Source: Dicyema japonicum
Lineage: Eukaryota > Dicyemida > Rhombozoa > Dicyemidae
Direction of reading: 5' to 3'
Assembly: GCA_011109175.1 (NCBI GenBank)
Contig: RDEW01000010.1
Coordinates: 248,001-312,000 of the forward strand
DNA: 64,000 bases
Part shown: in pieces, positions 96-61,580 of the stretch
Numbering within the stretch: the first letter of the stretch is position 1
How the letters are laid out: the number at the start of each line of letters is the position of its first letter
Notes under the pieces: model-generated
Databases searched by the model: none
The model's input: the letters and a program-made list of their open reading frames with translations, nothing else
What the model was told of the DNA's origin: nothing
Made by a program: the position numbers and the translations under genes

Positions 96-1722
96 CTATT
101 CAGATACCTCCATGGTAGACGCTACTGTTGCAGCTATGTAAAGTTGAGATTTGTCTAAATATTAATAAAGTAGAAAACCTAGGAGATTTTTAAATTTAGG
201 ATGTTTCCCAATCACTCTGGGAAGAAAATAAGTGGGAATAGCTGTCGCAGTAATCAGAATTCCACATCCCGCTGCATATGGGGCAGCAACGACGGAAGCA
301 ATGATAAGGGACCCTACAATCAGAATAAATATAATCGCAATTGGAATGGGAGCCTATAATAAGAAGGAATCGATACCTTAATTGGTCTGTTTGTATCTGG
401 TTCTTTTTTACGAAGATACATGAGTCCAATCAGGGAAAGTATCACTGCAAGCCAATTCATAATGCTGGTGTAATTTAACAGAGCTTCAACGTCCCCGGCT
501 AGTGTGTAGAACATGGATAGTAATCCCTGTTAAATAAAAGTAATCCAACAGTAACTATCGTAGCTACCACAGGTGTATTATATTTTAAATTTATAGTGTT
601 AGTAATCTTGGGCATGTGACCATTCCGTCCAGCAACGAAAAACAGCCTACCATTTCAAACCAATGATAACCTTGATGTCGAAATGGTGATTCCATTCACA
701 GCACCAAAGGTCGAGCAGGCGACCCCAGCAGCCAAAACATAACCAAAAATGGGGTGTATTTTGTCTCCAAAAGTCTATAATGTAGGAAATATAAAACTAG
801 AGCGATTGCCTTAGAATTAATTATTTCCTCAATGCTCAAATCAGAATAATATGCTAATATTGCTAAGACATATATGACCATGATAAAAAATAATGATAAA
901 AATAGACTCAATGGTAGATCCCTGATAGTTTATTATACATCATACTTTTTTACATTTTTCATTTCTTCAGCGACAGTGTTGAGAAATTGCCTACAATATC
1001 AAAGAGTCAAACCATCCATTGTAGGAAAATAATCCTCCATAGTGAGCCAGGGCAATCAACGAAAAGTCCCTTGTTGTGCCTTCAAACCCGGTATTGAGGG
1101 TACTCAAATCACCTGAAATATCAATATTTATAACCAGTTGCTAGATTGTAGAATCCTGTGAATATGATTGAAAGCAATGCTAAAATTTTGATAATACTGA
1201 ATATATCTTGAATCATAGTTGAAGCCCTGACACTCAGACAATTTATAGTTGTCACGATCACTGGGATTACAAAAATGTATTACTTATACATAAACTTCCT
1301 AAAAGGAGGACAACTGACCTCATTGAGTCACAAGCTGGGTAAATTGGTTTCAGGAGGTATATTGCAAATGTAAGAGATACAATTGCATTTAACGAAGGCC
1401 TTATTACGATAATTTCGACCCAGATTCGAACGAAAGCAGCAAATGAACCAAATGCTCTCATAATATAAATGTAGTCTCCACCAGAACTAGGGATCATTGT
1501 CCCCAATTCTGCATAACACAATGACCCCATAAGAGATAATATTCCACAATTTATCCAAACAATAAATGACATGCCAATACTTCCAGTCTGTTTGAGCACA
1601 GTAGTAGAACTTATGAAAATTCCTGAACCAATTACAGACCCAATAATGATTGACATTGAGCTGAGCAATGATATATTTTTCCCAAGCTTATGCTCATTTT
1701 CATCTTGAGTGTCCAGGTGCAT
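96..1722 (-). CDS. SLC7-family amino-acid transporter (heteromeric transporter light chain), 10 exons
   Basis: Probable 12-TM amino-acid exchanger of the plasma membrane, resembling b(0,+)AT and y+LAT light chains. Exons (minus): 1722-1284, 1260-1135, 1112-1013, 990-946, 921-798, 774-671, 646-556, 526-377, 353-179, 154-96. They give 471 codons with no internal stop; the human relative has 487 residues. The nine GT..AG introns are 23, 22, 22, 24, 23, 24, 29, 23 and 24 nt. TM1 carries the family motif GSGIF. 'CYAELGTMIPSSGGDYIYI' follows in TM2-3, and a Cys after TM3 ('YPACDS') sits where light chains form the disulfide to the heavy chain. Later blocks 'AGRNGHMPKI' and 'RPIK' also match the family. 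The start is the first ATG before a hydrophilic N-terminus of about 20 residues. The substrate and the subfamily cannot be decided by eye. Confidence 0.93.
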
Positions 1723-2064
1723 TTGACTAATATTTTATTTTTCAATATAAATTTAATAATATTTATAATATAAAATTTAATATAAAATAATTTAATTGAA
1801 ATTATCAACATTATATTTTTTTTGTTTTTTTAAATCCCCTGACCTAAAAATTAACTTTTAACTAATTTTAAATTGTTTTTAATTAACAATTTTTTATCTT
1901 AAAAGGTTTTTTATAATTAAAATTTTCTCTATAAGTCGTTTCCTCTTAAGCAACTATGGGAGTAAACCCAATTTTCACAGTCCTTTTCCTTTTCCTCAAT
2001 ATATATTGTCATCACTTTACTCACACTCTTCTCTCGCTTCATAATCAGACCGAAAGTAAATATC
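1723..2064. other. AT-rich flank of the transporter gene
   Basis: Very AT-rich, with runs of A and T. It probably contains the promoter and 5' leader of the minus-strand transporter. I see no coding potential or recognisable repeat. Confidence 0.4.
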
Positions 2065-3300
2065 TTTTATTTATTCATTAAGTGTATCATAACGCCGCGA
2101 AAGGTTGACTTCGTTCCTATATGATATATCCAAAGTCTTCTTGATTACCAGCGATTGAACATACACATTTGTTCTTTCACTTATATTCAAAGATCTGGCA
2201 TACTTCCATGAATGTGAAGTCACTAGGCCATCCCAGGTGAGTACAATCGGAACAATCTTGACCTCTGCGTAGTGTATCATCTCCAGCTCTTTGAAAAGAA
2301 GGTCACTTCCTCAGCTTTTTGCATTCCACCTGCTGTAGATTTTGGGTAGATGTTATTAGCACTTCGACCAAGACAATTTTGTTTCTCCTTTTATCAAAAA
2401 CGGACAGGTTTGGTTTGTTATGCTCAATAATTATGTCCGTTTTGATAAAGGTGTCAAGTCGAATATCAACTGAGTCATTTATTACAGTGGATTGCACTGA
2501 ATGATTCTTCAGTTTCTTCTCATTTTTGAGACTAAACTCTCTGCAAAAGTGGAAATCTAGACACCTCACTACTTCGTTATGTCTTCTTACATAATCCCCA
2601 TGCAACATCTTCTCACACCTATGGCACAATGATCCACAGTCTTCTTCCATTTTTGCAATGGGTGCACATTACATTTTGTTCTCCAAAGAACAGATTCCTA
2701 ACTTGAATAAGGCAGAATAAGGCTTCCGACCTTTGGGAGTTATTCCCTTTTAGAAGCCAATGAGAGGAATGCTCTATATTCGCACAATCCTACAACAAAT
2801 TCTTATAAATAACGGAATGAAGACTCTTCAATCTTATTTGATTCATTAAACCTTCTTTTTGCATGTTCGATATCAATTTTATATCCAACTCAGTAGTGTC
2901 GCAGACAGAATTAATGCCAAATGTGTTTTCTCCGAAATTTCAGCTTCAAGAATTGTGACACTTCTACTGCCAACAGTACTTCTGGGTTTCAAATCATGAA
3001 AAAATCCATATAACATCTCATTTAGAAGAGAGATTGAGTGTAGCCATTTCCCAAGGAAATTCTTCGTTAAATAAAACCTCTGCTTGCATGCAGGTTTGAG
3101 ATGGACTCTATGTTTAATCATATGGTGCGGATAGCTGAGTCAATCAATTCGTATTCACAGGGTTCCACATTAATGAGTCCAATATAATTGTTATATAAAG
3201 ACAAAGCATGCTCGTTAATAGCCTTAAACATATTCACTGCATTTAGTTTGGTATTCACCAGATTCTCAATTCTCTGGTTTACTTACGAAGAAATTATTTT
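2065..3300 (-). mobile_element. Family C retroelement fragment: RT thumb plus C-terminal nuclease-like domain
   Basis: Decayed minus-strand LINE piece. In order: an RT-thumb block ('LNAVNMFKAINEHAL', then 'GLINVEPCEYE'), a Cys/His cluster ('CHRCEKMLHGDYVRRH'), a PD-(D/E)XK-like block ('NKPNLSVFDKRRNKIVLVEV') and a final 'TWDGLVTSHSWKYARSL' / 'VYVQSLVIKKTLDIS' segment. The same blocks recur at 27.3 kb, 44.6 kb and 48.9 kb. Frames are interrupted. The clade is not assigned; R2/Dong-like elements with C-terminal restriction-like endonucleases are the closest known architecture. Confidence 0.7.
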
Positions 3301-3990: not shown

Positions 3991-4129
3991 TAGATAAATT
4001 GCTATGTCTTGACAAAACTGAGTTGTCCGCTCAACCAGGTGGTCGGATGCAGAGAATTTCCTCTTCAGAAGGTTTTACTTTATGCACGTGCTTAGCATGA
4101 ACTAAAAAATGACGCTAAATTCTTCTCAT

Positions 4130-4480: not shown

Positions 4481-4539
4481 GATATATAAGATTTTAGGAT
4501 GTGTCCATCACAATTACGTCACCTGCATAAATAAGAAGA

Positions 4540-5940: not shown

Positions 5941-5984
5941 GATTAATTGGAGGCCAAAGATCTTAGCTTTTCTTTCCTTTTTGG

Positions 5985-6345: not shown

Positions 6346-6742
6346 TTTAGTTAGTTTAAAGCACTTCACTTATACCATGATCATATGAATATTTAGGTTT
6401 TCACTTGCGTCGTAATCCTTACTAAGTTTTCTACTAGTTACTCCCATCCAACAGTAAAGTTGGAAGAATACAATAAAGATATATTACTCTGTGAGGAGGT
6501 ACTTGATAAAATCTGCTCAAATATATCCGGAATTATCAAAAAGGATCATGGTTTAATATAGAAGCCGTAGTTTCGAGATGTAACATCATTAATGGGATAT
6601 TACTTAACTTCGATACCTGCGGTTTTGTATTAGCATTGAATATTTAAAATTTTGACGTAACAAGCAAAAATTTAGTGATTGTTAATATTTTGTGGTTATA
6701 AATTAGTAATAGGAATTAATTTTAACAGAAATTCAAACACAA
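6346..6742. other. Intergenic; one possible small exon
   Basis: Mostly AT-rich. On the plus strand 6456-6561 reads as a charged helical stretch ('KLEEYNKDILLCEEVLDKIC...') ending in TAG, and a 29-nt GT..AG intron could lie before it. I cannot assign it, and it may be chance. Confidence 0.2.
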
Positions 6743-7109
6743 CTAACCAATAGTTAAGGTCACGCCTCCAATAGGTGCCATAAACGCCAACTTGTATATT
6801 CCTGTCAATCCATAATCATAGCAAGCACCCGAAAACATCAAAATTCCAGCTGTGAACAAATATGAGGCCTATATATAATTTAATTGACTCTCACTAATCG
6901 ACATCTGAGACATAGCGAAGCGACAACGAGGATTATACTGTGAGTCAAATGAATCGTATTTCCAGCAGAAAATGCTAACTGTCGTCATTCATCAGCATAG
7001 TTTTTTTTTTGAAAAACTATAGTTGTATATAATATTTACTATGGTGGTTATAAGCAGCCAGCATAACTGCAAAAGCTCCAAATACTGGTCCTACGCTACC
7101 CGTTGCCAT
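6743..7109 (-). CDS. TMEM256 / DUF423-like small membrane protein, with an in-frame TGA
   Basis: Small multi-pass membrane protein family, about 113 residues in human. Exons (minus): 7109-7040, 7016-6895, 6868-6743, with introns of 23 and 26 nt. The reading is 106 codons. Matches: N-terminal 'GPVFGAFAVMLAAYNHH' (family pattern LGALSGAxALGxxxYGAH), 'AGNTIHLTHSIILVVASLC', and 'AGILMFSGACYDYGLTG' followed by 'APIGGVTLTIG'. One in-frame TGA at 6985-6987 (after 'YADE') interrupts it, either a nonsense mutation or a base error. The stop is at 6743-6745, a few residues short of relatives. A LINE B fragment on the same strand abuts the ATG and is in frame with it. Function of the family is not established. 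Confidence 0.8.
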
Positions 7110-7240
7110 GTTCCGTAGAATATCTAGATCATCCCCATCTTTAAGGCACTTTCTAATCCTCCTGAGATCTTTATCTAGGATTACCGGCAATTTTGTCCTC
7201 GGTTGGACGTTGAAACGCGAAGCCTCCAAGATAAAATTCT
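7110..7240 (-). mobile_element. LINE B C-terminal piece downstream of the MULE insertion
   Basis: Minus frame 'FILEASRFNVQPRTKLP' and 'DDLDILRN' match the LINE B extreme C-terminus seen at 41.8 and 55.5 kb. It is the second half of the copy at 9502-10510, split by the transposon at 7241-9501. Its end coincides with the TMEM256 start codon. Confidence 0.8.
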
Positions 7241-7540: not shown

Positions 7541-9006
7541 ATGGTGATAATATCAACTAACAAAGGAGTAAAGAAAATTTGTTTTAAGGGTTATTTGTAT
7601 ACAAAGCACTCGAGACAAAAAACTATATAATTTTTAAATGTGTGAAAAAATCTTCACAAGGATGCAGAGGAAGCCTAAGAACAGATCATAATTTCGAATT
7701 TCCCAAAGAAGGAATTTCTCACAATCACGAATTTGACGAAAGTCAAATAAAACTGATGAAATTGTGCAACGAAGCAAAACTTATTGCTAAAACGAGTCAA
7801 GAAAATCCCTTACAAATCTATTCAAAGGTTGTGTCTGAATGTGAAACAGCAACCAGAATTATTCTCCCTTCTGCAGATTCTTTCAAGCGAACACTTAGGA
7901 ATCAACGCTTGTCTCTACATATTCCAAAAAATATTTTCGATCTCGGAGATATTCCATCGTCTTTATCTTTAACTCTTGGTCCAGATTCAGAAAATTTTTT
8001 AATTTATGATAATCATAGAAGAACCGATAGAATATTGATATTCAGCACCAAAACTAATATAACGTTATTGGCGAATTCAAAATCATGGTATATGGATGGA
8101 AATTTCTCCATGGCACCATGTATCTTCAAGCAAATCTATTTTATCAGGATTCAGTTCAATGCCAGTGCAATTACAGTTATTTATGGAATATTACCTTCTA
8201 AATCACGAAAGATTTACGAAGAATTTTTTGAGGCTATTCAAAATGCAATTCATAATTTGAATTTGGAATTTTGTCTTGAAACTATTATGGCAGACTTTGA
8301 AGATTCGGTATTTCGAGCTGTCCTTGCAGTATTTGGGAGACGAATACATATTAGAGGATGTTATTATCATCTAAGACAGTCAACCTGGAGAAAAATTCAA
8401 GAATTGCATCTAGTAAAACAATATAAAGAAAATATTAATTTTAACATTTTTTGCGCAATGATAGACGCTCTTGCATTTTTACCCATTCAAGATATGGAAG
8501 AAGGAATAGAATTCCTAATGAATAATATGCCAGAAAATGTTCCAGATTCAAAATATATATTAGATTATTTTGATAGAACATATGTTCGCGGTTATTATCG
8601 TTGCTTAAATGATCGAGAAAATCCCTTAGCTGTTAGAATACAGCACATTGCTCCATTGTTTCCTCCAAATTTATGGAATGTGTATGAAGCTACACTCAAT
8701 AATAAACAAAGAACAAATAACTATTGTGAAGGGTGGAACAATAAATTATACAATTTGACGGGATATCGTCATCCATCGATATGGAATATTATATCGTCAT
8801 TCCAAAAAGAAGAAAAAATGACGAAAACTATTATTGACCAGGATTCCTTTGGAAAAAGAATTTCAACAAGAACAAATAAAAAAACGATTGATAGACAAAA
8901 AAGGCTTTTAAATATATGTCTGGATCGCCAGGACGGAAAAAAAACAGTAGGAGAAGCCCTAAAAGCAATTGCATGGAATATTAAATATTCTTTTGATTCA
9001 CATTAA
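7541..9006 (+). pseudogene. MULE transposase with N-terminal FLYWCH finger, one frameshift
   Basis: From ATG 7541 the frame gives 'GYLYTKHSRQK', the first half of a FLYWCH zinc finger, then hits a stop. One base missing in the six-A run at 7617-7622 would bring in the long frame, which continues the finger ('FKCVKKSSQGCRG ... HNHEF'). The main frame (7642-9006, about 454 codons) carries the MULE catalytic neighbourhoods: 'YMDGNFSMAP' (first D), 'TIMADFEDSVFRAV' with 'RGCYYHLRQS' (second D), and 'NNYCEGWNNKL' (E). Apart from the single-base deletion it is open, so the copy is young or nearly functional. The deletion could also be a sequencing error. Confidence 0.9.
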
Positions 9007-17160: not shown

Positions 17161-17555
17161 TTGAGTTTGAATTTTACTTTAGTTCCTTCTAATACTAGTA
17201 AACAATTAAGTTATTAACCCAAGGTTAACACTTAAGTAGGCGAATATTTGGAAACACTTTTCAAAAATCAAGTACGTATATGCTGAATCCAGGTGATCCA
17301 GAGCAAGTAAAAAAATACGAACTTATCTGTAAGATTATGATATTGTAGATTATGATATTTGCTCACTCTGGTGGTCTCTGGGATCAACTCTAATGAGTAG
17401 AGGTAGTCGATGGTTTGGTACTTTATTCTCTTCAATGCTTAGAATGGGAAGGATCAACTAAAAGTCGTGAATTCTTTTTCTCCAAGTTAAGTTTTTGTTA
17501 CGGAAAAATCAATTAAAATATTAAGATTAGTAAAATCAAGATTAGTAAAATCAGG

Positions 17556-18603
17556 TTATTGAGTGAAAAAATCTAGACCATCCTGGATTTCAGCTTTAAG
17601 GTGTGGTAAAGCTTCGTCAACCATTTTTTGTTGCTGTTGATTCAAATCTGGCAAAAACACTGAATGGATTCCTTCGGGTCCAAATTCAACAGGGGAGGCG
17701 AAATATGAACACGAAGTAACATCTGATTTCACATATGCGCATTCAATTACACCTTTCTCGCCAGAGAGTCCACGAAGGATTGCCTTGAGGGTCTTAAATG
17801 CGGCCAAAGCTGTTGAAAGAGTCGCAGATCCCTTAAAAGTTTAACAAAAGCAACAACTATCCGATTTTTGGCTTCTATAACAACCATACCAGCATCTCGG
17901 ATTTTTAAGCAGAGTTCATTGATTTCATCGGTACTCATTGACGAGTTATTGATTAAAGGTACAATGGTGTTTTCTGAATGTCCACAAATACATATCCCTT
18001 CGATGTCCTTAGGATCACATCCCTAGAGGTCTTTGTTTAATAAATACAATTTTCCAGGCCATGAAAGTAGATGCTCTGAGGACATCAAGACTAGTGATTC
18101 CAATGACCCGTTTGAAGCATCAATCCCTTTATTTGATAGCGCAGTAACCGCAAGGGTACCAATGAGTTGACCTACAATAACTACATGTTGGTACTGGATT
18201 GCTTAAAATAGCTACAATGGCCTGAGGGCAATGCTGTCCTATTTCTTCAATGAGACTTTTGATTATGCTTGAATTTTTCGATAAAAAATCTTTTCTTGAA
18301 TTAACTAAAATCAAACTAAAACACTAACTTTTACTTGACATAATTCCTGCACAGATTATAACAGCATGTACTCCTGTTAGAGCTTCTTTGAGTTTATCAG
18401 ACTTGAAGCTTTTTATCACAATTTTATTTGGAATATGGGACAAGTCCTCTTTAACTCCAATAGGATCTTTCATATCATAAAGGTTGATTTGTCCAATCAA
18501 ATCCATATGTGTTTTTAATAACAGACATAGAGGCTGACCAATTCCTCCACAAGCTCCGAGAACTGCAACAGTATAGACTTAAGTTGAATTACGCTTTACC
18601 ATT
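17556..18603 (-). pseudogene. Malate dehydrogenase, decayed duplicate
   Basis: Same exon structure and 23-26 nt introns as the intact copy at 24547-25598. Near the N-terminus (about 18575-18598) two A and one C are missing relative to that copy, bringing a stop after eight codons. One base is missing near 18110, in exon 3, which shifts the frame. The rest is highly similar ('AVLGACGGIGQPLCLLLK', 'GEKGVIECAYVKSD'). Judged non-functional unless the indels are base errors. Confidence 0.85.
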
Positions 18604-19552
18604 TAATATTTTTATGTTAATTGTATGAAAATATTCAACAGTTTACAGAATTTTATTATTTATTATGTTAGCCGATGTAAAAAATTAATTTTAATTAATT
18701 AAATAATTTTATTAAAAATATCGAAAATTGTTGTTCACATAATAGCACTATATATTATTTACTTTGTCAAGAAAAAATTGTACTAACATAATTTTAAATC
18801 CAATTTACGTCAATAAGATACTCGATAATATCTAATCTTAATTAAATTTTCAAAACATTAATTTACTTAAGTGTTTACATCAGTGATTTAGCATTCTACA
18901 TTTCATTCCAAATGACAAACTGATAATTTTTTGAGAGAAAATGATTTTTAGTTTTTAAAAAAATTACGACGTCCTATTTCCATTATCCCTTTTGCATTTT
19001 TAGGCCTCGAACGCTGAGTGAAAAAGAAAACTTTTTAAGAACTTCATCAATGAAGACCAAGAAAATTTTGAAATGGGACCTTAGTTGACATATTTTTATT
19101 GGTTCTGTTAAAGTGTTTTTTAATAGTTTCTGTAAAAGTTAAGCCTACAATTTATGATAAGAATTCAAAGTTTATTGACTTTTTACTTATAATAGTAATG
19201 CTTTTCTTTGAAATGCCTAAGCGGATTTGGAAAAAAGAATGGGGTATTTCTCTTTAAGGTGCCTTTAAAGAATTGTCCGATGTAGGAAGAGAATCAAGTA
19301 ACAGATTACGACACAGCAAATGAATTGTATTGGTAGATGCACAAAAAATTCAATTTTGCTTGTGTAACTCCAAAATGATCAGTAACTAAAAAATTAGCGT
19401 ATACAGTCAGACCCCGAATTGGGGCAGACCCCAGGGGTGGGGCAACCTCGGATTTTGGGGCATTTTTTTGGCCAACATTATGGCAGAGTAAAATGGAAAA
19501 TCGATAAAAAATTTTGAAATTTTGGGGCACTATAAAATTGTGGGGAATGAAA

Positions 19553-19795
19553 TTATAAGTAAATAAAATTATAGGTATACGACAAATATAACTGGAGATA
19601 GAGAGTCTCTTGAGGTATTTCAACTGTTGTCCTGAAATGCTTCAATGTTGTGTTCCCAACTTGTACAGTTAATTCAGTGTTAGATAATAGGAAACGGACA
19701 AGTCTTGTGTTATCCTCATCAAGGAAACTCCCAGTGACGTCCAACAATGTTTTTCTTTTGACAGTATCAAACGCACAGGACATGTAGGGACTCAT
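19553..19795 (-). mobile_element. LINE B-type RT remnant inside the left arm
   Basis: Reads 'FDTVKRKTLLDVTGSFLD' and 'VRFLLSNTELTVQVGNT', the RT segment before the PQG motif. Only the first half is shared with the right arm (23340-23432). Confidence 0.65.
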
Positions 19796-20019
19796 TTAAT
19801 CTATTAAAAATGAAAAAATCTTGTTTTGGAATGTTTATGCTTCATTGACAAATATTTCGAAAGCTTCGCAGGAGCAAAAAAGGATTTTGTCATTTTCTGA
19901 TTGCATATTACGCATTCTGCCATTTCCAATATACAGTAGAGTAAATAATTCATGGCAACCCTACGTAATATGTGATTATTATTATCTTTCTTCAAAAAGA
20001 ATCTTTCCTATTATTTTAA

Positions 20020-20165
20020 AAGTTTTTTTTATTTTTTTTTTTTATTTTTTTTTTTTTAATGAACAAAAATTTATTACAATAAAATATTATTTATTAACTA
20101 TGAGGGAGAGCGGCTGCTGACATCACGGAGTAAGCGTTTCCGCGAATAACAGCGATACCAATTCT
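20020..20165 (-). mobile_element. 5'-truncated RLE-LINE tail, left arm only
   Basis: About 125 bp nearly identical to the 3' end of the RLE-LINE at 34205-34330 ('GCGGCTGCTGACATCACGGA' on the plus strand), with its poly(A) as poly(T) at 20024-20060. In the right arm the two flanks are directly joined at a T-rich site (about 23108-23125), so this is a clean insertion. T-rich repeats on both sides look like the target duplication. Confidence 0.85.
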
Positions 20166-20799
20166 TTGCCTTTTTTTATTTAAAATAAAACGATTTATCT
20201 TAATTGAGCAAATTAGTTATGAGATTTTTTATTTTTTAATTTTTACCCATTTATAATGTTTAAGTCAAATTTATTGTTGAAAAATTCATGGCAACGTTAA
20301 GTAAAATGACACTAATATTTTGTGGCAGACACTCGTTAAGAATCACTGCTTTTAAACGATTTTTATAATTTATAATTAACTTTTATGTGTCTTTGAAGAT
20401 ATATTATACCAATCTTCTATGAAAATTGCTTGTAAATCAGAAATATTCGTATTCAAAATTAGTCTTCAATTTTTCATTTATTTTATATAGGATTGAGGTT
20501 TTGTTTTAGCATTTCCATATGAGAGATAACTTTATGATTATTTATTTATATTATAATTGTTATTTATTTAGAACACGAATAAGACAGAAAAAAACGTTAG
20601 ACATTTAGGTACTCCTAGTTCATGTAATCAAACAAGTCATCTAATGTATGTGGTCTCCCATTGTTCCCATTACCGTAAGAAAGATCCTTCTCTCATCCCT
20701 GTAGAGGAATCCAATTGGGGAGGGGAACCTAGTTAGGCGGAAACCACACTTATTATTATTAATAGCACTTTCGAAGAACAAAAAAAGTAATTTATTTAA

Positions 20800-22690
20800 T
20801 TAAGGTTCCGCTTTGCCGTATTTTTCTTCAGGTTATTCTTTCTCCCACAATTCTCTTAACTAACTTGGGTTCTGACAATACAATTGAACATATTGCCATC
20901 AAAATTAATCTATTGCCTTCTTTTTGGATTAAATTGATTACTTTATACATTCCACCAAAAAGATTCTGCCCAACATCCTATATTCCAAATTTACCCGTCT
21001 CTCAGCACTAAAGAAAGTTATAATATGCGAATACCTCAATGTCCGACATCCCGTTTGGCATGATTCACAGTTCACTGACAGCCGTTGAGTACATCGCCAA
21101 TTGTCTTATTGATTTGATTATCATGAATGACCATAACCACTTATGAAACATTAAGCTGAACACATGGATTTCAAATTAAGTGTCCATCAACCGAATAAGT
21201 AACCTTAGTAAGAACTATTCTCAGACAAGCAGGTCTCAGCAGTTATTACCGGATTAAAGAACTCACGGGCCTCCGATCCTGACAAAGAATCTTCGATTCA
21301 CCAAAAGTCACTATGCAATTGGCTGCCACACACAAATATTTAACCTTTCTATTAACTAAAATATTAATCTCAAGATTTGGAAGAACTCTGTTATCAAGCC
21401 AGTTTTGAAAACTGGAAAACTGAAGGGAGAACTTGGTTCATACAAGACGATCCCCTTAACCAGCACAATATCAAAACTTGAATAACTGGTACTATCGGCC
21501 ATTATTCCAGACCTTCGTCAAACTCCATTCCAACACGGTTTTAGTGCTGGAAATTCCATTGTCTCTTATTTAACCACACTATTCCAATACATTGTCGATG
21601 GATTTAATGCAACCCCACCACAAATGCAAACTAAAATGGTCTCCATCGACATAAAAAAAGGCTTTCGACTGATGAAGCTTCTCATTAGAAAGATTTTGAT
21701 TCAAAAGTTCGTTCAAAGCTAAAACTGTGGTTGGCTAACTTTCTCTATGGACGACGTGGAAGAGTCGTCTGCGGGCATGTAAGATCAAGATTACTACCTA
21801 ACAGAGTACCTCAATATTCTCTGCTTTCTCCTGTTGTTTCAATCTTTTCCTCAACGACCTACCAATATATGGGGGCAAAAATCTTTTGTTATTATCTTAC
21901 TCAGACGACTTAATAATTGCAACACGCAAGTTGCAACAGCTAATACCAAGGCGAGTGAACACAGTCTACGATTGGTTGACAGTCAACCAACTAACTATTT
22001 CTGCCGACAAGTCAAGATGTACGTTTTTCACCTCAGACCGTCGTTCAAAAGAAGATGCAAGAAAATTCATTGATCTTTTCCAGATACCAGTAACTATGTC
22101 TCCCTCAATTCTTAAATTATTGTTTGAGAGGCTGTTGAATTTCAACTCTTAAGCGAAGAAAGTCCTCACTAATGGCCTGTATAGAAGTTGTAAGTTGTAC
22201 GCGCAATTGTCCGGAGGATTATTTTGAATTTAGATGCGTCTGTTGCAACACTCTACGAATAACTATCGCCCTGGCAGTGAAGTATGCCTCTATTGTTTAG
22301 AGATTCCGTTATCAGAGACCACGCTGCACAAACTCAGTTCAATATACCGAAAAACTATTATATGATGGGCCCACATACTAGATCAATGGTTAATCCCTTA
22401 CTCACAGAAGCTACGACCCGTAATCGCAAATCTGGATTCCTTCGGGTCTGTAAAGAAGATGGAAATCCGATTGGCCTGTTCTTTTCCAAGGCAAAAAAAA
22501 GTAGATTGGTTAATTAATTCCCCTCCTCAATTGGATTTCTCTACAGGGATGAGAGAAGGATCTTTCTTACGGTAATGGGAACAATGAGAGACCACATACA
22601 TTAGATGGCTGGATTGATTACATGAACTTGGATTACCTAAATGTCTAACGTTTTTTTCTGTCTTTTTCGGGGTCTAAATAAATAACAAAT
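20800..22690 (+). mobile_element. LINE A fragment filling the spacer of the inverted duplication
   Basis: Blocks 'SVIKPVLKTGKLKGELGSY', 'FQHGFSAGNSIVSYLTTL', 'MVSIDIKKGF', 'LLSYSDDLIIATRKLQQ' and 'WLTVNQLTISADKSRC', then a 3' end (22284-22690) whose tail also lies, inverted, in the left arm at 20546-20745. Many frameshifts. Confidence 0.8.
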
Positions 22691-25600
22691 ATAAATAAAT
22701 TGAAAATTGTACTTATAAATAATAATCAATAGAATCGAAAAAATCATGAAAGTTATCTCTAATATGGATGTGATAGAAACAAAACCTCAATCCTATATAA
22801 AATAAATGGAAAATTTAAAGACTAATTTTGAATACGAATATTTCTGATTTACAAGCAATTTTCATAGAAGAATGGTATAATATATCTTCAAAAGACACAT
22901 AAAAGTTAATTATAAATTATAAAAATCGTTTAAAAGCAGTGATTCTTAACGAGTGTCTGCCACAAAATATTAGTGTCATTTTACTTAACGTTGCCATGAA
23001 TTTTTTAAACAATAAATTTAACTTAAACATTATAAATGGGTAAAAATTAAAAAATAAAGAATCTCATAACTAATTTGCTCAATTAAGATAAATCGTTTTA
23101 TTTTAAATAAAAAAAACTTTTAAAATAATAGGAAAGATTCTTTTTGAAGAAAGATAATAATAATCACATATTACGTAGGGTGCCATGAATTATTTACTCT
23201 ACTGTATATTGGAAATGGCAGAATGCGTAATATGCAATCAAAAAATGACAAAATCCTCTTTTGCTCCTGCGAAGCTTTCGAAATATTTGTCAATGAAGCA
23301 TAAACATTCCAAAACAAGATTTTTTCATTTTTAATAAATTAAATGAGTCCCTACATGTCCTGTGCGTTTGATACTGTCAAAAGAAAAACATTGTTGGACG
23401 TCACTGGGAGTTTCCTTGATGAGGATAACACAAGAATATGACTATACAACTCATATATAAAGCCGGTGCTTATGTGCAACTCGGGTATATGGGGGAGTCA
23501 CAGAGCTAGAGCTCAAGAAAATGGATATATTTCATCAAAAACAATTATGCAATTTAATGGGCCTGGGTTGACCCAAGAAGATTTTAAACAAGAAATTATA
23601 CTCTGTGACATAATCGAGGCCAATAAGCATCGACATTATTGAATGGTAAAACCAACAAGAGACTTGGTAAAAAAATTTTATTGAATCATATCTTCGTGAT
23701 TCTAAGAACTCATTATCGATATATACGCTAATTTTTTAGTTACTGATCATTTTGGAGTTACACAATCAAAATTGAATTTTTTGTGCATCTACCTATACAA
23801 TTCATTTCCTGTGTCGTAATCTGTTACTTGATTCTCTACCTACATCGGACAATTCTTTCAAGGCTACCTTAGGAAGAGAAATACCCTCATTCCCTTTTCC
23901 AAATCAGTTTCAGGCATTTCAAAGAAAAGCATTCCTTTTCTAAGTAAAAATTCAATGAACTTTGAATTTTTACATAATTGTAGGCTTAATTTTTACAAAA
24001 AATATTAAAAAACATTTTAACAGAACTAATGAAAGTTACGTTAACTAAGGTCCCATTTCAAAGTTTTCTTGGTATTCATTGATGACGTGGTTATTAAAAA
24101 GTATTTCTTTTTCACTCAGCGTTCGAGGTCTTAAAAATTCAAAAAGGATGATGAGGAACTAGGACGTCGTAATTTTTTTAAGAAATGAAAATCATATTTT
24201 CTCTACAAAAAAGTTATCAAGTTTGTCATTAGGAATGAAATATAGAATACAAAATCACTGATGTAAAACACTTGAGTAAATTAATGTATCTAGAAAATTT
24301 AATTAAGGATTTAGATTATTAACGAGTATCCCATTGACGTAAATTGAATTTAAAATTATGTTAGTAACAATTTTTTCTTGACTAAGTAAATAATCTATAC
24401 TACTATTATGTGAACACCAATTTTCGATATTTTTAATAAAATTATTTAATTAATTAAAATTAATTTTTTACATCGGCTAACATAATAAAGTAATAAAATT
24501 CTGTAAACTGTTGAATATTTTCATACAATTAACATAAAAATATTAAATGGTAAAAAGCGTAATTCAACTTAAGTCCTATACTGTCGCAGTTCTCGGAGCT
24601 TGTGGAGGAATTGGTCAGCCTCTATGTCTTTTATTAAAAACACATATGGATATGATTGGACAAATCAACCTATATGATATGAAAGATCCTATTGGAGTTA
24701 AAGAGGACTTGTCCCATATTCCAAATAAAATTGTGATAAAAAGCTTCAAGTCTGATAAACTCAAAGAAGCTCTAACAGGAGTACATGCTGTTATAATCTG
24801 TGCAGGAATTATGTCAAGTAAAAGTTAGTGTTTTAGTTTGATTTTAGTTGATTCTAGAAAAGATTTTTTATCGAAAAATTCAAGCATAATCAAAAGTCTC
24901 ATTGAAGAAATAGGACAGCATTGCCCTCAGGCCATTGTAGCAATTTTAAGCAATCCAGTAACAACATGTAGTTATTGTAGGTCAACTCATTGGTACCCTT
25001 AGCGGTTACTGCGCTATCAAATAAAGGAATTGATGCCTCAAAGCGGGTCGTTGGAATCACTAGTCTTGATGTCCTCAGAGCATCGACTTTCATGGCCTGG
25101 AAAATTGTATTTATTAAACAAAGACCTCTAGGGATGTGATCCTAAGGACATCGAAGGGATATGTATTTGTGGACATTCAGAAAACACCATTGTACCTTTA
25201 ATCAATAACTCGTCAATGAGTACCGATGAAATCAATGAACTCTGCTTAAAAATCCGAGATGCTGGTTCGGTTGTTATAGAAGCCAAAAATCGGATAGTTG
25301 TTGCTTTTATTAAACTTTTAAGGGATCTGCGACTCTTTCAACAGCTTTGGCCGCATTTAAGACCCTCAAGGCAATCCTTCGTGGACTCTCTGGCGAGAAA
25401 GGTGTAATTGAATGCGCATATGTGAAATCAGATGTTACTTCGTGTTCATTTTTCGCCTCCCCTGTTGAATTTGGACCCGAAGGAATCCATTCAGTGTTTT
25501 TGCCAGATTTGAATCAACAGCAACAAAAAATGGTTGACGAAGCTTTACCACACCTTAAAGCTGAAATCCAGGCTGGTCTAGATTCTTTCTCTCAATAACC

Positions 25601-36917: not shown

Positions 36918-38196
36918 CTATTCGATAGCTGTAAAAACAGTTTTTGATGACATAAATGAATCACTGTTATCAAATAGTAGACAATCTCGGATATAAAAAA
37001 ATAGTCTACATTCCTCTGAGAAATTCAGAGTAACTGACAAGAATTGGGGAACATTATAGAATTGGTATTTATATGGGGGTAGAACCTCATATCCAGTCTC
37101 ATTTACGAGAGAAAAGATAATAGTACTGTTTTCCACCAAAAAACAAATTCCGAGAATTAAGAAAGACAAAACCTTGTTTTAGAAATTCCATGATTTTCAT
37201 GTTTTAATGGAATTTTTAAAATCGATTTGGGGAGATCCTTAGTTTAATCATATCAGAAGGAGGATACACATACATGGACATGGGGACTGTGATCCCCAAT
37301 CAGACTGAAATGAGTATATAGGAAACACAAGAGAAGGAATGCAGACAGTTTTCCTCAGAAATTTTTAACTTACCACCAAATTTGTCGAGCAATTGATCTT
37401 CCTCAATACATTCAAGGAGCATTAATACCTGATCCTACGATTCATCAGAAAGTGACCTTTAAGGATACTGACCTTAGCAGCAGTCCTAGAATCTACTATT
37501 TTAGTCAACAGTGAGTATATGACTGAGAAGATACTGGGAACTACAAAGTCATAAAAGGATCCACCGTTTATCAAAAATGATTTATACAAAGTCTCTGGGT
37601 ACAGATTTGAGAATATTGATTGAAGAACGATGAGGATTGTTATGGCAGGTCCCTTTATGACATCGAGACTCAATCCTTGAAGGTCAGAGATAACAATAAT
37701 CTGCCTTATGTCTACCATTCTGTTTGTTAGTACAAATGTACTTTAATAGAATCGGATTTCATTTTTTTAAATATCCCGTCGAGCATTTTAATCTTACATT
37801 TGATAATATCAGCGATTGTTATCGATTTGGAGATCCCTAGAGAGAAATCATACCCAAAACCCCTCCAATCACTTCTAAAAAATCTGATCGTACCATACTG
37901 GACGTGTTCTTTGTCATGACCACAAAATATGCCTCCAACGTGCTTCAAGTATACTTCTGGGCAAACAAAGTCGGAGATCCTCATATTGCAGAGATTTCAT
38001 CGTCTTCTTTGCCTAAAATTAAGCAGTTCCCAAACGTTTCTAAGCATCTTTTCCGCTTCATCTAAGTCCATGTTTCTTGCTTTAAATTATTGCAGAGAAA
38101 ACCTGAGAGGAATCTATTAATGTAATCATCGTCATCTTCCTGAGAGAGCAGGCCATCCAGTCGAACCCTTAGTTGCTTAATATTGTCAGAATTCAT
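36918..38196 (-). CDS. SEC14-like CRAL-TRIO + GOLD protein, probably decaying
   Basis: Lipid-binding/transfer protein of the SEC14L type. N-terminus from ATG 38196: 'DDDDYINRFLS' then, across a 23-nt intron, 'ARNMDLDEAEKMLRN' (CRAL-TRIO N). Then 'CPEVYLKHVGGIFCGHD', 'VISDLQGLSLDVIKGPA', 'NLYPETLYKSFLIN', 'ECIEEDQLLDKFGG', and a GOLD end 'LLFDNSDSFMSSKTVF'. Order and spacing match SEC14L proteins. However, the frame slips by one base near 37978, near 37718 and near 37420, and I could not repair these with 20-30 nt introns. Either it is a recent pseudogene or the sequence has errors. Exon limits are therefore only partly defined. Confidence 0.75.
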
Positions 38197-44814: not shown

Positions 44815-45843
44815 TTATAGTATTTTAAAGCAGACTAAAATTAATAAGTGGCCAACCTGAGCAATCATCAGTTCTATAAGGAAAAGATAGAGTCAAGTTC
44901 TTACATCGGTAACACATTATACGGACAGACGAACAGTGCTAATAAATAAAGACACAACTACCAGACAATTCTTAATATGACTACAACACTTTACAAATAT
45001 ATTATTATATATGTTTAAGAGCTTCTCCTGATGAATTTGTCTAAGGTAGTCCACAGAAAAACGTGCAGAGAACTCACGTAGAAAGAGAGACTCGTGGATT
45101 ATATTCTCTAAAGGACTACCAAATTAACTCAAATGAAACAATTCACACCCTTTCACAATATCAATGATTATGCACAATCGGTCTCGCAGATATTCCACGT
45201 GATCCAACTTTAGGACTCGAACCGTGGGTTCTGGAATCATTTCCAAACCAATCAATGGAGAATACAAAGCCCAGGACAAATATTGATAAGCCACTACGCA
45301 AACAGGGTACTTTTTAAATTCACATCTTTCGACGACGTAGGCAGGGATAATAATCTCAAAGTTCTGGTGGCACATTGAACAGAAATACTGTTTCGTGTAG
45401 TGGCAGAATATCATAAGGTTATCAAATATTTAATAAGAGTTACTGTTGAATGCAGGGGTATTACAACCAAAACAGTTCATTTCCATGTTGATTCGGACAT
45501 CGGGGGGAGAATGGAGAATCAAAAGGCGGTTGAGTCGACCCATGTTGTCATTTTTGGACGCATTTTCTGACTTGATTAAGGATTTTTTGTTCTAGGGTAT
45601 TTATCAAAAATTAACTGATAAATCAGGAGCCTCAATGACTTCATCAATGTTGATTGAAAAATATTTGAGTGACATCTTTTTAAAATTCTGGACTTGATTT
45701 CTCTTCAACTCATTCGCAGCTAATTTGAATGGAGCATTTTCCTACTTTAATGAATATATTACAATTTCTAGCTTCCCCTCAGTCTCCTCTTTGACGTAAA
45801 GTAAAAAATTTTCATGTTGAACGTTTCTATCGTATTTAATCAT
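44815..45843 (-). CDS. Rubicon-homology (DUF4206) zinc-finger protein, DEF8/PLEKHM-like, with an in-frame TAA
   Basis: RH domains bind Rab7 and act in late endosome/lysosome trafficking. Exons (minus): 45843-45763, 45741-45616, 45591-45129, 45107-44962, 44938-44857, 44834-44815; introns 21, 24, 21, 23 and 22 nt. Zinc ligands in order: 'NCFGCN', 'CHYTKQYFCSMCHQN', 'IPAYVV...FKKYPV', 'NCLHCS', 'CYRCKN', 'DDCSVCF'. The arrangement matches DEF8/PLEKHM RH domains but stops before the last His/Cys cluster. Within exon 3 a TAA at 45430-45432 lies between the first CxxC and 'CHYT', with no GT..AG intron to remove it. The N-terminal ~70 residues are unlike known members. Possibly a pseudogene. Confidence 0.8.
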
Positions 45844-47410: not shown

Positions 47411-47429
47411 GTTTTTAAAACATGCAACG

Positions 47430-49410
47430 TGCTTTCGATTCGGTGGCGTTAAAACTCTCTCGAGTTGGCAAAAATGTTGAAAGGAAAAAGGAGAAGGGTC
47501 ACTTGCGTTACCTGATGGTATGAATGTAATTCTTGCCATATCCGAGAGCGTTGTGGCAGATGACCCAAAAGAATGGGCGAGGCAGGTAGTCTTGCAGGTA
47601 CGTAGCAGGCTATCTCGAATTCCCTGGAATGGTTGGCCATACTTGGCGGAGCTCTGCAGTGGCAGATTCAGTACTGCTATATCTGTGAGTGAACTCAATA
47701 ATTGGTTGTAGGCAAAGAGGGTACTGATCTAAAGGGGCGGGGACCAGGTGACCACAACTATCAAAAAAAGAGGCACGAACACCCCAGAGCTGTGATACGT
47801 TGCAGCTCAAGCATGTTTATGAGGTCTTAGCGCGGAATCTCGCTGCAGCGGCAGATGTCCCACTTAAGGACCGTAGATTTACCTTAAGATCCTTCATAGC
47901 ATGGTTAACGGAGTAGTATTAACCTGTATCAATAAGGCTGTGGCTTATGCGGTGGAGACTATGCCATCTCCCTTAGTGCTTTATGTAGCACATATCACCT
48001 ATCAGCAGTTGACGTACAAGCCCAGACATTCAGTAAATGGAGGAAGCAGATCTGTGACAAGATTCCTTGGCGACAGACAGAGCTGGAAGCACTGGATGAG
48101 CACATAAGTAAAGTGGCGAGAAGGGTTGAAGGAAAAGCACCGTCTATACTAAAAGGGTTACTTAGTAAACTCCGTTTTCCCAAATGGGACTTCAAATGGA
48201 GGGCAATAATGGTGTATAAGAGGAAATTCTATAACATGAATGTCGAGGTAAGAGAAAGAGAGAAAATAATCTGTTTGAATTTAATCGAAGATTGTTTTAC
48301 CGTTGCCTACACGAAAATGGCAATAGTGCATGTTCCCAGGAAAGAAGCAAATGGAATTCTCTCGAGAATAAGTTGTGTACTGTGCATAATTGTCAGGGAG
48401 CAAAAGAGGAGTCTTTTATCAACAAGTGCCTTTCTGTGTCTCACGGAAACTCACCTGGAGTATTCATCTGAACTATAATAGGCACCGGGTAGGCGAGGTA
48501 AAACTCCTTCAGGAGGATTGCAAGTCTCCGCTACTCTTTGTTCTCTGTTTGGAGCCATTGAGTCGCCTCCTCAATGACCGGTTTGAGCAAATAAGTTAAT
48601 TGTGAAGGATTTGTTTCAGTGCAAATTACCTTCTTTTTATCTATGACTGAAGATGTATGCTCGAACAGCCGAGGAGCTCTACTTCATGGGGGTCTGTGCC
48701 AGGGAATTCTTTGAGAGTATAGGACTAGATTTGAATTATTCAAAGTCTGCGACTAACACGCAAGTATGTAGCGAGTTAGTAAAGTCCTAGAGGAACACGA
48801 AGGATATAAGTATCTGGGTGTTACCGAAACTCCAAAGTCTTTTATAATGCCTGAGACAAAGCGACAAATTACTGAAGGCATTCGTAAAAGAGCAGCGTTA
48901 TTATGTAATTATCTAAATGAAAGGAATTTGAAAGGAATTTGTTCCTTGCATTAAATGAGTATACTGTCTCGTTGCTAAACTACTACATAGGTGTTGTGGA
49001 GTTTGAGCCCAAAGAGTATGATGAGAATGATGTTATGATCCGTAGAGTACTTCAAGAAAACCATGTCCATGTGCTGGCAGTTAATAAGAAGAGACTATAT
49101 TTACCCCGTGATAAATTCGGCCCTGGACTGTGTGGAGTAGTCCAACTAAGTGAGCGTATCCGTATGTGTATGTACGACACCCTGATAGCCGGGTCAATTG
49201 TATCTGCTAGGAAGCACGCCATAATAACGACCGAGAAAACACGGGCAACCCACCTAGGCACTATCAGACCTTTTTTGTCTGCTAAGTATGGTGTTGATGA
49301 TGGTGGGCTAGTAAATGTGAAGGCGTTGATCGAATTACATTATAATAATTCAATGAAAAAAATCAACTTAAAAGCCTTCATAGGATCGATCTTTGAGTAT
49401 AGCTATTGAT
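47430..49410 (+). mobile_element. Family C copy, RT through C-terminal part
   Basis: Ordered blocks in changing frames: 'SRIPWNGWPYLAEL', 'KLRFPKWDFKWRAIM', 'SPLLFVLCLEPLSRLLN' (RT palm), 'YKYLGVTET', 'LLNYYIGVVEFEPKEYDEND', 'KRLYLPRDKFGPGLCGV'. The last open frame (48939-49409) is the longest intact piece. Confidence 0.7.
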
Positions 49411-50483: not shown

Positions 50484-51151
50484 TTAATGGAATCTACAAA
50501 ATGCCTTGAAACTAAACTTTTTTGAAGTATTCCTAGGCCATTCACTCTCAGAATAATTCTTGGTCAGATTCTTCAAGGAGAACTCGGTAGAGTCATCGCA
50601 TTGGTAGATCTAAGTTAAGTACTAACAATACTGGCTTGTCCCGTAGGTAGATGCATTTTCTATAAATGCAGGATTGCTTCAAGATTTTGCGATTTAGGCA
50701 GTTTTTGCAGGAATTACAGTTCTCTCGGACATTACAAGGCCCACAGAAGCCGCATCTACGCCTTCGCTGACTCCGCCCTTTCGTAACTGGCTGAAAGTCA
50801 TGGTCGATTCTCTTTAGTGCCCGACTAGATCCGTAGTCAATCCTTCTTTTCCGGGAGACGGGTTGTAGATTAGTCGACCTGGCTTTAATCTCGGCTTCTC
50901 GTAGTTTTACTGGCTCAAACGGTCCACAAATCTCGATGGCCTGCCGAGTCCATGAAAATTGCCACAGGTGGCAAGAGATCGTACAAGTTGAGCGTCCTGT
51001 AAGTCATCTTCAAACGTGGTTCTTCGATTTTGGTCCTTTGGAGTACCAACTGTTCAGGAGGATGCGGTTCCTTGGATACAGAATAGAAATTCTTAAGCAG
51101 TTCAAGATAGGGGATCCGAACGCTGAGTGAGCAATCGGGAAGGAAGTTCAT
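50484..51151 (-). CDS. Small CXXC zinc-finger protein, 3 exons
   Basis: Unmethylated-CpG-binding CXXC finger of the TET/CXXC4/CXXC5 subtype, by spacing. Exons (minus): 51151-50966, 50940-50632, 50609-50484; introns 25 and 22 nt; 207 codons, no internal stop. The finger reads 'RCGFCGPCNVRENC', 'NSCKNCLNRK', 'SCIYRKC', giving C-x2-C-x2-C-x5-C-x2-C-x2-C-x9-C-x4-C with the short linker lacking the KFGG motif. It is preceded by a basic nuclear-localisation-like stretch ('SRKRRID', 'KGRSQRRRR'). No catalytic domain follows. The N-terminal 60 residues are unrecognised. Nuclear function is inferred. It lies between the arms of the second inverted duplication. Confidence 0.87.
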
Positions 51152-53740: not shown

Positions 53741-53865
53741 TACAGTAAAACCTCTCGAATCCGTCAGAAAAAATTATTTGTTAAAAATGCGGCGGATTCG
53801 AGAAATTCTCATAGGAAATTTTGTATTTTTGAAAAAATGCGGCGGATTCGAGAGGTTTTACTGTA
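53741..53865. repeat. Pogo/mariner-like MITE, 125 bp
   Basis: Nearly perfect terminal inverted repeats TACAGTAAAACCTCTCGAAT / ATTCGAGAGGTTTTACTGTA, with TA at both ends. An internal 'ATGCGGCGGATTCGAGA' is repeated. No coding capacity. Confidence 0.85.
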
Positions 53866-57790: not shown

Positions 57791-57839
57791 TCTTACTTAG
57801 CTAATTAATATTTATTTATCAAAAACACAAAAATCAATC

Positions 57840-58480: not shown

Positions 58481-58574
58481 AATCGGGGGAAAATTGTACC
58501 CACTTTCATATAAAGAGGTACATCCGGACCCACTTTCATATTCTCTTGAGGAGGCTCGAATAGTCTTCCAAACT

Positions 58575-59610: not shown

Positions 59611-59791
59611 TAAAGAATTGGTGAACCAGATAACGCCACGCCAAAAATTAAAATTGTTCTGATAGTTTTGATTGTTGCATTTAAATAATAGAAATTAAAA
59701 CTAATAAATTTTAAAATTAAAAGATTGAGTATTTATTTTAATTTTAATTTGATCCTCGTTTTATTCTGATAGCCTATTTGGATAATTTTGA

Positions 59792-60360
59792 ATGTCGGCG
59801 ATATTAAGAAGAATTATGAATCCAACTTATTTTGCTGGGCTCTGCCGAGTTAATTGTTCCAGGCTGACCTATTCACGGTCGTTGTATTCCCATTCTCAGT
59901 CGCTTGTCTATCGAACTGGATTTATAACTATGAGAAGAAACTTTTCTAGTCAAAACAACAGCAATACACTCATACAGCGATTCAAATCTCTTTTTAAACG
60001 ATATGGCAAAATTGTGGGTGGTTCACTTCTCCCTTAGTATTTTCTGGGCCTTTTTTGCCTACCTAATTTATACCAGGTTTTTCGTGAAATTGATTTTAGT
60101 GGATTTGATGTTTTCTCCTTCATTTCAAAGCTGAATCCCCTTCATACATTGAAGAACTAATAAACAAGCCTGGGGTTGGAGTTGGGGCCAATACCTATCT
60201 TATTTACAAGTTGCTCACACCTCTGAGATATTTGGCCACCATTGGGATTACTCGTTCTGTTGTTAAGATCTCCATTAAGGGGAATTATGAAGCCCATTCC
60301 AAAGGAAGAAAGAATAACCAATTTATTAAGGAAAAGGCAAAAAGTAAACTTAAAAGTTAA
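59792..60360 (+). CDS. FAM210-like (DUF1279) mitochondrial membrane protein
   Basis: FAM210 proteins are mitochondrial inner-membrane proteins. The N-terminus is Arg/Ser-rich ('RNFSSQNN'), like a presequence. 'FKSLFKRYGKI' begins DUF1279; a TM segment ('FWAFFAYLIYT' in one frame, then 'SGFDVFSF' across a 23-nt intron at about 60079-60101) follows, and the C-terminal exon reads 'GANTYLIYKLLTPLRYLATI'. Exon 1 (59792-60013) and the last segment (about 60130-60360) are certain. The middle needs either a 24-nt intron at 60014-60037 or two one-base corrections (near 60036 and 60130) to match the family best. It lies only 80 bp upstream of PRPF18 on the same strand. Confidence 0.8.
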
Positions 60361-60440
60361 TTTTTGTTTTTAATCATTTTAATAAATTTTGAATTAAAAT
60401 ATTTAATTAAGTTAAGTTTCAGTTATCTCTTGTGTTCTCA

Positions 60441-61580
60441 ATGACTGATGATCTACGAAAGCTTTTGGCCGAAAAGAGACAGCATTATGACTCCCTTTGC
60501 CAAGTAGTCACATGTTAATCATTTTAAGGGAACCAAAAAACGTTTCATGAAAAGATCTGAATTAATTACCATGAAAGTTTTGAACCTGAGAAATCCGAGA
60601 TCTTAATCAAGCCACAAGATGTGATTCTTGAAGCAGAAGTGAAGATCATCCCAAAAAACGAAGATGAAAGTCATCCCAAACCCTCAATGCCCCGTAAAGA
60701 TGTTATACGACTCCGCGAATTGAATGCCCCAATTTTGCTGTTTGGTGAGTGTGAATACGATGCCTTTTCTCGTTTGAGGAAACTGGAGATTGCTGAGCCC
60801 GATTTTAACGAAGTAGCCCTTTTCATTACCACAGAGCTACCAAAACGACTTCCGAGAGGCCATGGCGAGGGTTGACGAGGAATATCTCACGGAAAAGATA
60901 GGAACCGACGGAAAGGCCAGCGGACGAGGGAAGCCATCCCAGTCAGGGACCACACATAACATTGACTACTTTTTGGTAATATAAGTAGTATTAATTTGTA
61001 GCGGATGAAGGAATCCTTACCCACGAGAAGGGGAGAACCTTTAGACATAAACCAGTCAAAACTGGTGGCGGATTATTTGCAGGTAGGACTCTGCCATTAC
61101 TACAGTTCATTTTGAGGGGATGGACGGACCAACTCAACCGTCGTTCTGACTTGGAAAAGACGAGCACTGAAGGGAAGAAATTGAGGGCCATTCACAGACA
61201 GACTATTGAGTACCTCAGACCACTGTTCAAGATGTTGACGAACGAGACGCTGAATAAGGACATTTTGGACGGATTAGTGAGTGTGGTGAGGTTCTTGATT
61301 GAGCGGAACTATATAAAGGTTTGCTTAGTGCTTACCGCAGGCAAATGATGTTTACTTGGAGATTGCTATTGGAAACGCTCCATGGCCAATTGGAGTGACC
61401 ATGGTGGGGATTCACGCACGTCCTGGGAGAGAAAAAGTGTCTTCTAAGTATGTTGCCCACGTGCTCAATGATGAGACTCAAAGGAAGTTTCTACAGGCTG
61501 TTAAAAGACTGATTACTCAAAATCAGGAGTTGTTTCCCACTTTTCCTCACCGTAGTGTTAATTATATTAAGAAAACTTGA
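60441..61580 (+). CDS. PRPF18: Pre-mRNA-splicing factor 18 (PRPF18/Prp18), 7 exons
   Basis: Second-step splicing factor that stabilises exon alignment in the spliceosome. Exons 60441-60503, 60529-60576, 60600-60812, 60835-60975, 61002-61082, 61106-61318, 61341-61580; introns 25, 23, 22, 26, 23 and 22 nt, all in phase 0; 333 codons (human protein 342 residues). Matches: '[10 protein letters not shown]', the splicing-factor motif '[13 protein letters not shown]' with '[12 protein letters not shown]', '[15 protein letters not shown]', and the Prp18 domain ('[15 protein letters not shown]', '[11 protein letters not shown]', '[18 protein letters not shown]', '[16 protein letters not shown]'). The intron at 60577-60599 is the least certain. 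The perfect frame over seven exons is the strongest single proof of 22-26 nt introns here. Confidence 0.96.

Follow-up and report, generated by a model that had tools for sequence, protein, structure and literature searches.

Ultra-short introns have been described from dicyemids since 2007 (PMC2222250). The Dicyema genes reported in that paper have introns of 26.2 +/- 1.9 nucleotides (nt; n = 16), a median intron of 27 nt has been given for Dicyema sp. (PMC6543705) and a mean of 38.2 nt for D. japonicum (PMC6736024). A branch-point signature was reported to be absent from 41 tabulated dicyemid introns (PMC2483917); these statements, like the others cited here, are drawn from parts of the papers concerned. 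In this study the introns were analysed in a window of 64,000 nt (assembly GCA_011109175.1, contig RDEW01000010.1, positions 248,001 to 312,000; coordinates below are counted from the first letter of the window) and in a sample from the assembly as a whole. Dicyemid introns are reportedly also the subject of Ogino 2010, as cited in the papers above. An initial annotation of the window had identified GT..AG introns of 21-29 nt in nearly every cellular gene, a size placed near the lower limit for spliceosomal introns and said to be matched among animals only by dicyemids. As tiny introns themselves have been known for dicyemids since 2007, this core finding is a further instance. An open question is the minimum intron size for the spliceosome, and how the branch point is found at that size. 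From the sequence we consider it very probable that the tiny introns are ordinary U2-type spliceosomal introns of a near-uniform 22-24 nt, in a dicyemid genome, probably with a branch set by position and with a few AT-AC introns beside them.

Short introns in the window and in the genome

Proteins were aligned to the DNA with a splice-aware protein-to-genome aligner that admits any GT..AG segment of 14-150 nt at a single flat cost and uses no further splice information. Twenty GT..AG introns of 22-26 nt gain homology support in this way, across four gene models of the window: an SLC7 transporter, two copies of a malate dehydrogenase (MDH) gene, and PRPF18.

96..1722, minus strand: SLC7-type (LAT/xCT-like) amino acid transporter gene with nine introns of 22-24 nt (PDB search, Pfam, alignment, gene model)
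1261..1283, minus strand: SLC7 intron 1, 23 nt (alignment)
1113..1134, minus strand: SLC7 intron 2, 22 nt (alignment)
991..1012, minus strand: SLC7 intron 3, 22 nt (alignment)
922..945, minus strand: SLC7 intron 4, 24 nt (alignment)
775..797, minus strand: SLC7 intron 5, 23 nt (alignment)
647..670, minus strand: SLC7 intron 6, 24 nt (alignment)
527..549, minus strand: SLC7 intron 7, 23 nt (alignment)
354..376, minus strand: SLC7 intron 8, 23 nt (alignment)
155..178, minus strand: SLC7 intron 9, 24 nt (trained gene model alone)
24547..25598, plus strand: mitochondrial-type MDH gene, intact copy (homology)
24550..24573, plus strand: putative MDH intron following the start codon, 24 nt (placed without homology support)
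24824..24847, plus strand: MDH intron, 24 nt (6/6 homologues; could also be read as 30 nt, starting at 24818)
24958..24980, plus strand: MDH intron, 23 nt (6/6 homologues)
25107..25131, plus strand: MDH intron, 25 nt (6/6 homologues)
25297..25322, plus strand: MDH intron, 26 nt (6/6 homologues)
17556..18602, minus strand: second MDH copy, on the opposite palindrome arm, frame broken by small indels (homology)
18305-18328, 18172-18194, 18023-18047 and 17832-17857, minus strand: the same four introns in the second MDH copy (6/6 homologues)
60441..61580, plus strand: PRPF18 (Prp18) gene (Pfam PF02840, 187.9 bits; homologues, among the matches listed, up to 53% identical)
60504..60528, plus strand: PRPF18 intron, 25 nt, weak (1/10 homologues)
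60813..60834, plus strand: PRPF18 intron, 22 nt (10/10 homologues)
60976..61001, plus strand: PRPF18 intron, 26 nt (7/10 homologues; 3/10 favour 35 nt)
61083..61105, plus strand: PRPF18 intron, 23 nt (7/10 homologues; 3/10 favour another)
61319..61340, plus strand: PRPF18 intron, 22 nt (10/10 homologues)

The SLC7 gene has a best E of 1.3e-100 in the PDB search and matches Pfam PF13520 with 150 bits, and 438 of its residues align gap-free to one PDB chain after removal of eight introns of 22-24 nt. Among 256 pairs of end dinucleotides GT..AG ranked first in each of four genes (three window genes and an aldolase, with one template each), scoring 918, 572, 689 and 1358 against 832, 554, 667 and 1303 for the respective runners-up. 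These results confirm the presence of GT..AG introns in the initially annotated range of 21-29 nt. Nine introns had been proposed for the transporter, of which eight are upheld by the alignment to one template and the ninth (155-178) comes from the gene model; the four proposed for MDH are borne out by 6/6 homologues, at 24, 23, 25 and 26 nt in the plus-strand copy. In PRPF18, credited with six, four have homology support, one is weak (1/10) and none is agreed on near 60569-60599. At this break in the frame the methods disagree, a one-base frameshift being favoured by 3/6 homologues and a 14-nt GT..AG segment by 3/6, and the gene models put an intron of 35 or 23 nt there. The earlier count of 19 introns in these genes thus stands at 16 with homology support if the same ones were meant, single introns having been given no coordinates.

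The two MDH copies lie one on each arm of a palindrome at 17225-25948 (about 17.2-25.9 kilobases) whose longer arms are 98% complementary. No dicyemid MDH is named among the 120 matches listed of 1512, and the best listed MDH homologue is 45% identical. A partial PRPF18 copy elsewhere in the assembly (L002, G000:C110:529752-530089) matches the query over 341 nt at 86% identity.

A weakly trained gene finder that used codons alone returned 0 introns in one run and 15 in another. Homology alignment was adopted because a gene finder whose length prior was flat over 14-120 nt extended genes too far and added many spurious long introns beside a peak at 22-24 nt. The 22-24 nt mode is still seen under this flat prior (46/194 in the untrained round and 67/256 in the last).

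The wider sample drew on the window genes, two aldolases, 12 Ras-family loci chosen among search hits, and kinase loci (29 of 30). With at least two templates required, 178 kinase candidates yielded 56 distinct introns and 49 Ras candidates yielded 26, to which were added aldolase (10/10), MDH (8/8), PRPF18 (4/10) and SLC7 (8/8) introns, giving a total of 112. Within this supported set of six gene families 107/112 introns are 21-29 nt long, the exceptions measuring 17, 20, 42, 75 and 139 nt. The 108 introns of 20-30 nt have a mean of 23.56 nt (standard deviation 1.69, median 23), and the mean is much the same for the 26 introns with outside-protein templates (23.6 nt, second MDH copy excluded) and the 78 whose templates come from the genome itself (23.5 nt). 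The 108 show no avoidance of multiples of three (35, 28 and 45 in the three length classes). In the Ras-family locus L087 no GT..AG intron connects the reading frame ahead of the LWDTAGQ motif, and the alignments use a frameshift.

For the class I aldolase of the genome the top match, among 120 listed of 7999 scored, is the Dicyema acuticephalum enzyme (77% identical, covering 99% of the query), the remaining homologues listed being at most 64% identical. One copy (L092) aligns to the D. acuticephalum protein over 361/361 residues with no gap when introns of 23, 27, 23, 23 and 23 nt are removed, and the D. acuticephalum protein record is without the segments read as introns. The paralogous copy (L093) also aligns over the 361 residues, with one frameshift and with five introns (25, 26, 23, 23 and 23 nt) whose positions match those of L092. 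The assembly (64.7 Mb, 191 contigs) and the GC content of the window (36.9%) are near the values published for D. japonicum, which are 67.5 Mb and 36.7% (PMC6736024). Judged by one gene (aldolase), genome size, GC content and intron length, the genome is that of a dicyemid, and introns of about 23 nt would be found in the window genes because the DNA comes from a group known for very short introns. The initial reading as spliceosomal introns near the lower size limit, matched among animals only by dicyemids, is supported, the nearest listed aldolase being that of a Dicyema and U1, U2 and U6 genes being present (see below). The mean is 2.6 nt below the D. acuticephalum value of PMC2222250 (Welch p = 5e-5, 20-30 nt subset against n = 16), and the species or strain sampled has introns somewhat shorter than the published dicyemid values.

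Several points weigh against this picture. The supported set does include the exceptions listed above; 82/112 introns (kinase and Ras) use templates from the genome's own gene models; and 68 of the 121 single-template kinase candidates exceed 40 nt, with 36 at 20-30 nt. The trained gene model places short introns inside retroelement-like stretches too, for which reason introns backed by the gene model alone are weak, and the length gap to D. acuticephalum depends on 16 published introns and on the 20-30 nt subset. Single-base indels are present in the assembly or in old duplicates (the MDH minus copy, L093, and PRPF18 near 60569), so that a small number of the introns modelled may in fact be corrections of the frame. 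Carried further, this would make the short segments in general frameshifts, due to assembly errors or gene decay, that a permissive model misreads as GT..AG introns, and the four genes of the dinucleotide comparison do require 10, 3, 5 and 4 frameshifts when introns are disallowed. We regard this as very improbable, given that GT..AG came first in 4/4 genes, that no length prior is needed for lengths to gather at 22-24 nt, that the paralogous aldolases share five intron positions, and that indel errors would put no adenine at -7/-8 (see below). Just as hard to credit as the source of the genome is some other animal with short introns, an orthonectid for example. Orthonectid introns are short too, with a median of 57 bp (PMC6543705), but the mean here is 23.6 nt, and the Dicyema aldolase leads the next match, among those listed, by 13 identity points. 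Genuine short introns in a dicyemid genome remain the preferred explanation.

An adenine at a fixed distance from the 3' end

Beyond the GT the 5' splice site is weak, with A or T at +3 and 0.92 bits over +3 to +6, and the T-rich 3' end closes mostly in T/C-AG. An adenine is present at -7 or -8 from the 3' end in 85/104 distinct introns, as against 50/104 for the control pair -11/-12 (Fisher p = 5e-7) and a mean of 48 and maximum of 64 in 2000 shuffles. The pattern T-N-A at this position is found in 63 introns (shuffle mean 23.3, maximum 40). The adenine is most regular in introns of 22-24 nt (67/72), occurs both with outside templates (23/26) and with own templates (62/78), and falls on average at nt 16.7 counted from the 5' end. 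An earlier count of adenines at -7 had come from a model whose training had included this position and was replaced by this set, which uses GT and AG only. It is likely, on sequence grounds, that the -7/-8 adenine is the branch point and is set by position. A positional adenine in dicyemid introns was not found among the literature matches listed and is, as far as found, new.

Genes for the small nuclear RNAs (snRNAs) are present in the assembly. Nine of 10 U6 hits and 22 of 25 U2 hits are above their cut-offs, and in each case the best copy is canonical, that of U2 having an intact branch-binding stretch. None of the 11 U1 hits is above the Rfam cut-off (best 69 against 69.5); the 5' end, ACUUACCUG, is intact and the body has diverged.

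AT-AC introns and the minor spliceosome

U12-type introns have the consensus ATATCCTT at the 5' site and TTCCTTAAC at the branch site. The genome has one U12 gene (L033, 85.4 bits), which keeps what we take to be the 5' stretch, an Sm-like site and the 3' loop, and one U6atac gene (L064, 37 bits, cut-off 33), which contains AAAGGAGAG. These single hits stand beside the 22 U2 hits above cut-off. Candidate U12-type introns were sought by a 5' site RTATCCTT, a branch site TTCCTTRAC, an AC or AG end and coding context. Of 20 distinct hits to the patterns 16 were looked at, 15 by codon use (six of these also by translation) and L094 by translation, so that nine loci were judged solely on flank codon scores. 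Three of the 16 sit in conserved genes and restore the frame; the other 13 were unconvincing by codon scores or translation. A phospholipase C (PLC) gamma-like gene (L073) has an AT-AC intron of 50 nt, and its spliced Y domain matches PF00387 with 88.6 bits. In a SMAP-type ArfGAP gene (L075) an AT-AC intron of 48 nt is spanned by a gap-free alignment to SMAP1. The third, of 52 nt, is in a GGPP synthase gene (L094), where the alignment is gap-free (E 7e-4) with the intron end picked to fit the frame. All three have CCTTAAC followed by 6 nt, which places the branch-site adenine at -8, as in the major introns. The minor spliceosome is thus probably retained in this genome. No mention of minor introns in dicyemids was found in the open-licence dicyemid literature, as represented by the portion of PMC2483917 that was available.

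The positional reading of the branch point and the reality of the minor introns are each open to another explanation. The adenine might be part of an extended 3' splice-site signal, with the branch elsewhere; the T-rich stretch from -6 to -3 comes directly after it. Also telling against a positional branch, the adenine is present in only 10/20 introns of 21, 26 and 27 nt, and complementarity to the U2 branch-binding stretch is weak at -7/-8 (means of 2.67 and 2.73, inside the range of 2.06-2.8 for other adenines). The AT-AC introns in turn might be chance matches or substrates of the major spliceosome, and the minor snRNA genes relics. Searched genome-wide, two strict U12 patterns matched 15 and 7 times, with 2 hits in common, against 27 and 9 in reversed controls, and so were not enriched; a search for U4atac found none, its controls being silent as well; nothing in Pfam matches the GGPP synthase piece; and the PLC alignment shows small gaps at the junction. 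Against this, all three introns are in conserved genes, restore the frame and have a constant spacing from branch site to AC, and the U12 gene retains what we take to be its 5' stretch, Sm-like site and 3' loop, which makes chance or relic status an unlikely account. The extended 3' signal is a more serious contender, although we doubt it: the CCTTAAC motif sets the branch-site adenine of the three U12-type introns at -8 also, and in the 15-nt introns of Stentor the branch adenine is at nt 10, which is -6 (PMC9505925).

If the -7/-8 adenine is the branch point, it would be selected by distance to the 3' end and not by a strong motif; a T usually stands two bases ahead of it. Recognition might then take in the intron as a whole (intron definition), the part before the branch measuring about 16 nt and the part between branch and exon 6-7 nt. 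The AT-AC introns of 48-52 nt would probably be served by the retained minor spliceosome with the same branch-to-exon spacing as the major. That both spliceosomes share one geometry, with the branch adenine 7-8 nt from the 3' end in major introns of 22-24 nt and minor introns of about 50 nt, is a proposal towards which we lean slightly. If true, dicyemids would provide a natural system of minimal introns in which both spliceosomes are kept, and the claim that dicyemid introns have no branch-point signature would be overturned.

Other features and comparison with known systems

The remaining genes recognised in the window are the following.

44815..45414, minus strand: part of a Rubicon-homology (RH) domain gene with modelled introns of 24, 23 and 22 nt (PF13901, 100.5 bits; introns by gene model only)
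50484..51151, minus strand: CXXC zinc-finger gene with modelled introns of 25, 22 and 24 nt (PF02008, 26.4 bits, cut-off 26.5; introns by gene model only)
37253..38196, minus strand: CRAL-TRIO (Sec14-like) gene with 12 modelled introns of 22-29 nt (PF00650, 38.7 bits; introns by gene model only)
6740..7120, minus strand: TMEM256/DUF423-like gene, extent approximate (PF04241, 32 bits, one exon)
59800..60361, plus strand: FAM210-like gene, extent approximate (PF06916, 17.7 bits, below the cut-off of 26)

The RH-domain, CXXC and TMEM256/DUF423 genes named in the initial annotation are real, the CXXC match being just below its cut-off, and the FAM210-like gene is perhaps the one it called an orphan. 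Its statement that nearly every cellular gene has such introns fits the genes looked at; the CRAL-TRIO gene had been overlooked. Gene finders with the usual minimum intron size would miss or break such genes in the window.

A large share of the window looks like decayed retroelements. The region 31054-33720 (plus strand) holds an element like a long interspersed nuclear element, whose endonuclease domain matches PF03372 with 43.9 bits, and at 7591-9003 (plus strand) an open frame of 471 amino acids, which matches MULE transposases weakly (25.9 bits, cut-off 27.6), has aaaaagtcaag repeats on its flanks. Short elements at about 53742-53863 and 62720-62775 have cagtaaaacctctcgaatccg and its complement as inverted ends, the second element imperfectly, and resemble small DNA-transposon derivatives. 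At 47422-49409 (plus strand) the gene model joins a reading frame across 14 short introns. No tRNA was found in the window by ARAGORN, and no Rfam family at gathering score by cmscan.

The combination in one animal of introns of about 23 nt, conserved snRNA recognition sequences, an adenine at -7/-8 and U12-type introns of about 50 nt would make it possible to test directly whether the branch is chosen by position and how small an intron each of the two spliceosomes accepts. Its closest counterparts are the dicyemid introns already published, which are likewise tiny, near-uniform and several per gene, in genomes of similar size (PMC2222250, PMC6543705, PMC6736024). They differ in that the mean is 23.6 nt here against 26.2 nt (n = 16) or a median of 27 nt there, in the positional adenine seen here, and in that minor introns are unmentioned in the parts of those papers that we cite. 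The AT-AC introns share ATATCCTT, TTCCTTAAC, the AC end and the accompanying U12 and U6atac genes with known U12-type AT-AC introns (PMC10639083, PMC7367187). At 48-52 nt they may be set beside the survey of PMC10639083, in which Blastocystis has the shortest on average, with a median of 39 bp, introns of less than 30 nt being excluded. Paramecium and the Bigelowiella nucleomorph are alike in having introns of 18-35 nt, intron-rich genomes and weak signals, but are not animals, and in the sections cited a branch-point signature is reported to be absent from them (PMC2222250, PMC2483917). Stentor coeruleus is a ciliate with introns of 15-16 nt in which, according to the part of the paper cited, minor-spliceosome snRNA was not found, but it resembles the present genome, as interpreted here, in its positional branch adenine (nt 10 of 15), its weak branch consensus and its conserved U1 and U2 recognition sequences (PMC9505925).

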